In this document: positions 48,059-53,387 of the stretch, piece by piece | Layout of the letters: each line of letters begins with the position of its first letter | Position numbering within the stretch: position 1 is the stretch's first letter | Source of the DNA: an uncultured Ruegeria sp. | Lineage (GTDB): Bacteria > Pseudomonadota > Alphaproteobacteria > Rhodobacterales > Rhodobacteraceae | Assembly (NCBI RefSeq): GCF_947504215.1 | Contig: NZ_CANNGO010000006.1 | Location: forward strand, 124,001 to 188,000 | Length of the DNA: 64,000 nt | Reading direction: 5' to 3' | Made by a program: the position numbers and the translations under genes | Notes under the pieces: model-generated | The model's input: the letters and a program-made list of their open reading frames with translations, nothing else | Told to the model about the DNA's origin: nothing | Database searches by the model: none

Positions 48059-48703
48059 ATGGGATTGAATAACTTGCTTGAGCATTTTGTAACGCTTTGG
48101 GTTGTCATTGATCCGATTGGTACAATACCGGTCTTCATAGCAGTAACCGCAGGGCTCGAAGCTGCCGCCCGTCGGCGCATGGCGTTGCTTGCCTCGTTGA
48201 TCAGCGCCGGCATTTTGTTGTTTTTCCTCATATTCGGACAGCTGCTAATTGAGGCGCTGGATATCGGCCTGAACTCTTTTCAGGTTGCCGGGGGCATCAT
48301 CCTGTTCCTGTTCGCTTTGACGATGATTTTCGGAGAAAGCAAACAGGACGTAGAACAACGCCAGGCCGAAGAAGACCTGGAAGATAAAACCCACAAGCAA
48401 AACCCTGCTATTTTTCCCCTCGCGGTGCCGTCTTTGGCATCCCCCGGGGCAATGCTTGCGATTGTCATTCTGACTGACAATCACCGATACAGCATGGTGG
48501 ATCAGGGTATTACAGCGCTGGTCATGTTGGCAGTGCTGGTCGTGGCATTCGTACTGATGCTTCTGGCTGAACCGATCATCCGTTTGATCGGCCATTCCGG
48601 CGCGGCCATCATAAGCCGTGTGATGGGCATGATATTGGCCTCGGTCGCCGTAAACTCTGTTTTATCGGCATTGATGGAAATCATGAAAACCGGACAATTG
48701 TAA
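48059..48703 (+). CDS. MarC family membrane protein
   Basis: EHFVTLWVVIDPIGTIPVFIAVTAG; FPLAVPSLASPGAMLAIVILTDN. Confidence 0.9.
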   Translation: MGLNNLLEHFVTLWVVIDPIGTIPVFIAVTAGLEAAARRRMALLASLISAGILLFFLIFGQLLIEALDIGLNSFQVAGGIILFLFALTMIFGESKQDVEQRQAEEDLEDKTHKQNPAIFPLAVPSLASPGAMLAIVILTDNHRYSMVDQGITALVMLAVLVVAFVLMLLAEPIIRLIGHSGAAIISRVMGMILASVAVNSVLSALMEIMKTGQL

Positions 48704-48742
48704 AAAAAGCCGCCGCTCCTTCCGGGCGGAAAGGGCGGCGGC
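48702..48742 (-). terminator. Rho-independent terminator of the minus-strand small gene 48888-49010
   Basis: Minus strand: GCCGCCGC-CCTTTCCGCCCGGAAGGA-GCGGCGGC followed by TTTTTTT. Confidence 0.75.
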
Positions 48743-48887
48743 AGGTAATGCGTTTCTCGTGTGGGGTCCGGGTCTCCGCGGGGCCGAGGCATGGCCCCTC
48801 AAGGGAATTGGGACAGGCAGGTCACCCTTGACTGAGATGGGGATAACACGCGCGAGACAATCGGCACGAGAGCGCAGGCAGAAAGGC

Positions 48888-49010
48888 TTAGAAACCGACG
48901 GGCAGATGCAAGGCAACAACCAGAATCACGACCAGAGACATCACACCCGCCGCATCCTGCAGAATGGTCGATTGTGAACGGCTGAATACGCTCTTGATCT
49001 GGCTCAGCAT
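48888..49010 (-). CDS. 40-aa single-TM small protein (missing from ORF track under this start)
   Basis: MLSQIKSVFSRSQSTILQDAAGVMSLVVILVVALHLPVGF*; Shine-Dalgarno GGAGGTGA just upstream of ATG; downstream terminator; upstream SOS-box-like motif. Confidence 0.72.
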   Translation of the reverse strand: MLSQIKSVFSRSQSTILQDAAGVMSLVVILVVALHLPVGF

Positions 49011-49080
49011 AGGGTCACCTCCGGTCAGAGTTTTAATTCTTTGTTGACCTTTTGTTCTCATATTTTGCCGAGTCGGTAAA

Positions 49081-49095
49081 GAACTTTTTAAGAAC
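49081..49095 (-). promoter_or_regulatory. Putative LexA/SOS box (GTTC-N7-GTTC)
   Basis: Minus strand GTTCTTAAAAAGTTC; plus strand GAAC-TTTTTAA-GAAC; further GAAC at 49102 and 49112. Confidence 0.6.
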
Positions 49096-49122
49096 ATTTG
49101 TGAACTTTACGGAACTTGTGCT

Positions 49123-53387
<4,265 letters not shown>

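Follow-up and report, generated by a model that had tools for sequence, protein, structure and literature searches.

Directly downstream of recG in the window (the whole stretch of DNA analyzed, 64,000 nt) lies a compact unit that, to judge from its sequence, is controlled by LexA and combines a gene for a peptide with a single transmembrane (TM) helix and a multi-hairpin RNA; SOS control is strongly supported at this level (Table 1). The interpretation favored here, at a probability of roughly 0.5, is that it is a LexA-repressed, damage-inducible unit with two products, peptide and RNA, adjacent to recG in nearly all Rhodobacteraceae and having a job in division control or a checkpoint.

The Rhodobacteraceae are abundant in the sea and include models for the gene transfer agents (GTAs), the control of which is linked with LexA and CtrA. 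A literature search found no SOS division inhibitor for this family, and recG goes unmentioned in the main text of the literature on Dinoroseobacter LexA sites and on Ruegeria pomeroyi and Paracoccus sRNAs. A predicted LexA-controlled gene in almost every genus, for which neither Pfam nor NCBIfam has a model, makes a direct candidate for the checkpoint still missing, and the overlooked unit, with an RNA fold absent from Rfam, points to an undescribed branch of the Rhodobacteraceae DNA-damage response.

Table 1. Features of the recG-adjacent unit in window coordinates. Operator and promoter assignments are predictions.
Feature	Position	Strand	Description	Basis
recG	49123..51213	-	upstream neighbor; stop codon 27 nt before operator 1	ORF list
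Extra GTTC half-site	49102..49105	-	GTTC-N6-GTTC ahead of operator 1	121/147 box-bearing loci
LexA operator 1 (predicted)	49081..49095	-	GTTCTTAAAAAGTTC; family consensus GTTCTYAAAAAGTTC	matrix score, conservation
Probable -35 TTTACC	49075..49080	-	abuts operator 1	promoter role inferred
Probable -10 region TATGAGAACAA	49052..49062	-	overlaps operator 2	conserved TGAGAAC at fixed distance in most loci; hexamer approximate
LexA operator 2 (predicted)	49043..49057	-	GAACAAAAGGTCAAC; GAAC-N7-CAAC, equivalent to GTTG-N7-GTTC on +	matrix score, conservation
Shine-Dalgarno GGAGGTGA	49015..49022	-		sequence; kept within genus
40-codon ORF	48888..49010	-	single-TM peptide MLSQIKSVFSRSQSTILQDAAGVMSLVVILVVALHLPVGF	conservation, dN/dS, predicted helix
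Structured RNA	48742..48884	-	closing stem and three hairpins; repeated CUGCC/CUGUCC	R1 model, covariation
Intrinsic terminator	48702..48742	-	hairpin and T7	stem with compensatory changes; fold

At the DNA level, the perfect GTTC-N7-GTTC reported in an earlier note on this DNA is present on the minus strand at 49095-49081 (operator 1). Taken alone it is not significant: 2.3 such boxes are expected per window by chance (dinucleotide-preserving shuffle), and the window's own genome has 175 matches, against 132 for a reversed control pattern. The case therefore rests on conservation. What makes operator 1 significant is that 126 of the 130 distinct orthologous ORFs have a perfect copy no more than 135 nt upstream, with a background of ~0.2-1% per interval of this size; if spacings of N6 to N8 are allowed, the count is 129 of 130. 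The box is present in 147 of 159 distinct recG-downstream regions, which were located in relatives through the C-terminus of RecG.

A LexA weight matrix made from 26 automatically extracted operators (lexA and recA only, from the tested genomes) was run over the ~128,000 positions of the window. Operator 1 ranks first, at 18.4 bits; next in the 64-kb window, at 16.9 bits, comes a site at 49057-49043 (operator 2). The third-best site (12.2 bits; window 13823, + strand, TTTGCTCATTTTCTGTACTCG) is probably due to chance. The earlier note had placed one SOS box at the promoter; that box holds up, but the predicted promoter is bracketed by two operators.

Operator 2 resembles the genome's own recA operator, GAACAAGAGGCGAAC, from which it differs in a G-to-C change in the second half-site and in the spacer. 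It follows operator 1 after a gap of 23 nt in 128/147 loci. In within-genus pairwise comparisons it is 98.7% identical, the highest value for any segment measured, with 93.8% for operator 1 and 57.6% for ORF third positions. Its CAAC form is retained in 119/147 loci, suggesting that a second operator, although a weak one, has been preserved. Immediately after operator 1, 129/147 loci have TTTACN and 3/147 have TTGACA, which fits a -35 element wedged between the operators. The TATGAG previously suggested as a -10 element is possible, but the conserved element is this putative -35, TTTAC[AC]. Upstream, a triple half-site, GTTC-N6-GTTC-N7-GTTC (window 49105-49081), is kept in 121/147 loci; N6 is not the usual LexA spacing.

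Promoters of recA in the family (L218, L219-L226) mirror that of the unit: often, a weak GTTC-N7-GGTC-like site stands between the -35 and -10 elements, and a strong GAAC-N7-GAAC follows shortly after the -10. A lexA gene or LexA DNA-binding domain was found in 19/19 genomes tested, including the window's own and those without a recognizable peptide, and lexA carries its own GAAC-N7-GAAC operator.

In recG-downstream regions from outside the family, the box was found in 0/26 and 2/40 cases, the two being chance-like. The absence of a convincing box from these 66 regions indicates that the operator belongs with this gene family. A recG-linked unit shared more widely among the Alphaproteobacteria was accordingly rejected, the RNA model introduced below having likewise found nothing convincing in the same 66 regions. 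With two family-conserved operators, both recovered independently by a matrix trained on lexA and recA, the LexA control proposed in the earlier note is extremely likely as far as sequence can tell.

At the protein level, the 40-codon ORF (49010-48888, minus strand) is virtually certain to be a real gene, as both conservation and selection indicate. Its ATG at 49010 is preceded by CCGGAGGTGACCCT, and the strong Shine-Dalgarno (SD) sequence already noticed there, CCGGAGGTGACCCTATG, was confirmed. By single-sequence search, the ORF is found in 37/37 genomes of the genus and in 194 of 248 sampled genera of the family; a 29-sequence profile finds it in 139/150 genomes of the order, representing 70 of 73 genera. 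Named loci with the peptide include Ruegeria, Phaeobacter, Sulfitobacter, Roseobacter, Sedimentitalea, Tateyamaria, Rhodovulum, and others, which marks the window as coming from a Ruegeria-like member of the Rhodobacteraceae. The gene normally comes directly after recG and is a core gene, present once and inherited vertically. Among 385 genomes sampled across the class, convincing matches were confined to the five family members; the other matches have weak E-values, and almost all are inside long ORFs. A mobile or phage origin was considered and rejected: searches of plasmid and phage collections brought up nothing.

Within the genus dN/dS is ~0.13 (medians 0.12 and 0.93), 65% of ORF differences are at codon position 3, and the shifted reading frame is closed by stops in 31/31 sequences. 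The earlier note had listed missing peptide-level conservation, a dN/dS near 1, and frameshifts in relatives as signs against a gene; neither the profile search nor these comparisons turned them up. The first six codons (49010-48993) show almost no synonymous variation in the genus, with identities of 0.81-1.0 where ~0.4 is common later, which suggests extra constraint at the translation start or in the RNA. A 69-aa reading from an ATG at 49097 was rejected: its start lies over operator 1, and the length of the upstream frame is not conserved.

Family genomes without a sequence match mostly still have the box after recG, followed by a diverged single-TM ORF of 31-47 aa (for example the 31-aa MTREFLSDLLGVTALSVITGVMLWLPAILQA). 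The architecture of D-x-x-G, hydrophobic helix, and LP persists despite the drift in sequence, and several of these ORFs are followed by shortened versions of the RNA, with CTGCC(CC)GCG, CTGTCCC, and a terminator. Four recG-downstream regions of the family (L227, L248, L251, and L252) have neither box nor small TM ORF, so the unit would seem not to be universally needed.

The peptide consensus is MLxQIKxxxxRSQxTLLQDAxGAASLxVMLVVALHLPGxx, with T15, D19, G22, and L34 invariant. No relative was found in Pfam, NCBIfam, or the PDB, and matches to PHROGs are weak only. As the earlier note proposed, this is a small protein with one predicted helix, the TM segment covering about residues 20-38; an AF2 model, which adds little, likewise gives one helix (residues 2-35, pLDDT 78). 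Mean charge is +1.2 on the N-side and 0 on the C-side, from which an N-in orientation is inferred.

The chemistry of the helix bears on what such a peptide could do. The hydrophobic moment is 0.10 in the window and 0.06-0.20 in six examples; the TM segment is uncharged in the window and has ~0.5 charged residues on average across 58 proteins. The helix is thus not amphipathic, a property that speaks against pore formation of the TisB kind and would suit a helix docking onto another protein in the membrane. The earlier note had allowed for a TisB-like role, and the peptide might, in the manner of TisB or DinQ, be a membrane-active toxin that depolarizes the membrane during SOS and favors persistence. 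Its size, single TM helix, and predicted LexA control would suit such a toxin, and in E. coli a toxic single-TM peptide under SOS regulation is known, DinQ (PMC3567139). Besides the helix, however, no conserved antisense RNA was seen, the leader pairs no better with its own downstream RNA than with the RNAs of other loci or shuffled RNA, and the peptide is encoded by a single-copy, vertically inherited core gene absent from the searched plasmid and phage collections. A toxin of this kind is considered unlikely.

If the helix does bind a partner, this need not be a division protein. Many bacterial single-TM peptides of 30-50 aa regulate other membrane proteins, and this one might be a small regulatory subunit of a transporter, respiratory enzyme, or protease that is adjusted after damage. 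The invariant D-x-x-G and the LHLP motif do suggest a specific helix partner, but no gene for one is linked: recG lies on one side and, in the window, a MarC-like gene in convergent orientation on the other. SOS-induced single-TM peptides of known role, moreover, are often division inhibitors (SidA, YneA, and SosA). A regulatory subunit is therefore judged unlikely, if less so than a toxin, and action on the divisome is preferred.

At the RNA level, the unit has a component that the earlier note did not contain. The hairpin and seven T's with which that note ended the unit are as described (48742-48702, GC-rich), but they are not merely the end of a peptide mRNA: they terminate a structured RNA of ~145 nt, which in the window begins 3 nt past the ORF stop. 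Within the genus this RNA is as conserved as the peptide, the 3′ region being ~86% identical where ORF third positions are ~58%. The predicted fold, a closing stem holding further hairpins and then the terminator, has an energy below that of 200/200 shuffles (z -3.9).

Covariation was assessed in two ways. In a MAFFT alignment with a hand-written structure, not fitted to any model, 88.4% of cells pair, against 82.5% in shuffled and at most 52% in slid controls, and there are 30 double-change cells against 10.4 in shuffles. In a model-fitted alignment of 65 distinct sequences, which leans towards the structure, 28 of 29 pairs have double changes (324 cells against 89). Shared ancestry of related sequences inflates such figures; the slid controls argue against ancestry as the whole cause.

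The RNA model (R1) matches the window at 48884-48742 (139.7 bits, E 2.9e-30) and a further 67 loci of the family, immediately 3′ of the stop codon. With an E cutoff of 0.01 and strict filters it is found in 73/150 genomes of the order. In 289 class genomes its sole out-of-family match appears to lie within coding sequence with no box nearby, and was rejected. Rfam has no match at E up to 1. Identity with 6S RNA (RF00013), which is also structured and of similar length, was discarded on this account and because the genome's 6S candidate is elsewhere. The sequence CUGYC occurs in 3.6 copies per RNA, against 0.86 in shuffles, and the CUGCC/CUGUCC repeats are mostly in loops of the consensus structure. 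The whole-transcript fold suggested that the RNA represses the ORF in cis by base-pairing to the SD of the transcript; as a conserved feature this was rejected, since the pairing is no better than that of swapped or shuffled RNAs. One of the 73 genomes has a second, degenerate copy of the RNA (L332, at G752:C1:2644680-2644815), without a LexA box and adjoining a tRNA gene and marC. A position next to marC is that of the unit in the window; the intact unit is elsewhere in the genome with the two copies, and the second copy is a decayed relic of a move or duplication.

It is very likely that a functional RNA is carried on the transcript of the peptide. It could instead be transcribed from a promoter of its own within the ORF, as a separate gene outside SOS control whose position after the ORF is incidental. 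The variable distance at which it begins (0 to ~50 nt past the stop codon across loci) would be in keeping with this, as would the raised synonymous conservation of some late ORF codons. No promoter is evident there, however; one terminator serves both; and the family matches, apart from the one decayed relic, are directly 3′ of the ORF. Separate genes are accordingly thought unlikely.

Conversely, the RNA might be the main effector and the peptide minor, so that the locus would amount to an SOS-induced sRNA gene comparable to that of DinR. Its conservation to the level of the ORF in the genus, its strong covariation, and its repeated C-rich motifs all speak for an important RNA. The ORF, on the other hand, is under clear purifying selection, and at depth the recognizable conservation of the RNA is the weaker of the two (73 as opposed to 139 of 150 genomes). 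Such a division of labor seems quite improbable, and a unit with two working products is preferred.

On that reading, LexA would sit on both operators bracketing the promoter, and RecA-stimulated cleavage of LexA would open it, if sequence is a guide. The strong SD would then lead to translation of a tiny peptide, whose coding status is indicated by selection and whose predicted topology places it in the inner membrane: a short basic N-terminus inside, the invariant D-x-x-G at the entry to the helix, a non-amphipathic TM helix, and a short LHLP-xx tail. The ~145-nt RNA ending in the terminator would probably be freed by processing as a stable sRNA. By analogy with SidA, the peptide would bind a membrane protein of the divisome; the CUGCC/CUGUCC repeats of the RNA would pair with mRNAs, as DinR does with ftsZ mRNA, or titrate a protein. 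Arrest of division in the manner of SidA is plausible by this analogy, and a division or checkpoint role for the peptide has, on the same grounds, slightly less than an even chance. The fullest version, in which the peptide and a new multi-hairpin RNA family together form a Rhodobacteraceae damage checkpoint, with the divisome as the target of the peptide and with the RNA directed at mRNAs for division or the cell cycle, or else soaking up a protein, is more tentative still, and is put forward as a possibility clearly below even odds.

Among known systems, the E. coli TisB/istR and DinQ/agrB pairs also have small SOS-induced membrane peptides, induction being predicted for the present unit; it differs from them in its helix chemistry (from TisB), in that no conserved antisense RNA was seen, and as a core chromosomal gene. 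In logic the closest precedents would be Caulobacter SidA, Klebsiella dinI-DinR, and E. coli dicBF, none of which is claimed as a homolog. SidA, a membrane protein of 29 aa, inhibits division in the SOS response and acts on FtsW (PMC4211646). It shares with the peptide an alphaproteobacterial host, very short length, LexA control (here by sequence), and a single TM helix in the inner membrane (here predicted); a search of 385 class genomes, however, brought up no relative of the peptide beyond its own family, and no structured RNA is reported with sidA in the literature consulted, whereas the unit has one. E. coli dicBF, for which no sequence relation is established, likewise has a small protein and an sRNA in one operon, DicB and DicF, both of which inhibit division; it resides on a prophage, and its repressor is DicA rather than LexA (PMC10448788).

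DinR is processed from the 3′ end of the LexA-controlled Klebsiella dinI mRNA and represses ftsZ; its authors comment that further sRNAs under LexA control are lacking from their data (PMC10907235). The RNA of the present unit would be a structured RNA that is under LexA control and deeply conserved. Both systems have an mRNA for a small protein under LexA control, predicted here from sequence, with an RNA of ~150 nt at its 3′ end (PMC10907235). The proteins differ, and DinR is excised from the interior of the dinI coding sequence, with a Klebsiella-specific pairing stretch, whereas the RNA of the unit is separate from the ORF, multi-hairpin, and family-wide. The layout is nonetheless DinR-like: a structured RNA in the 3′ part of what appears to be a LexA-type mRNA, ending at the terminator.
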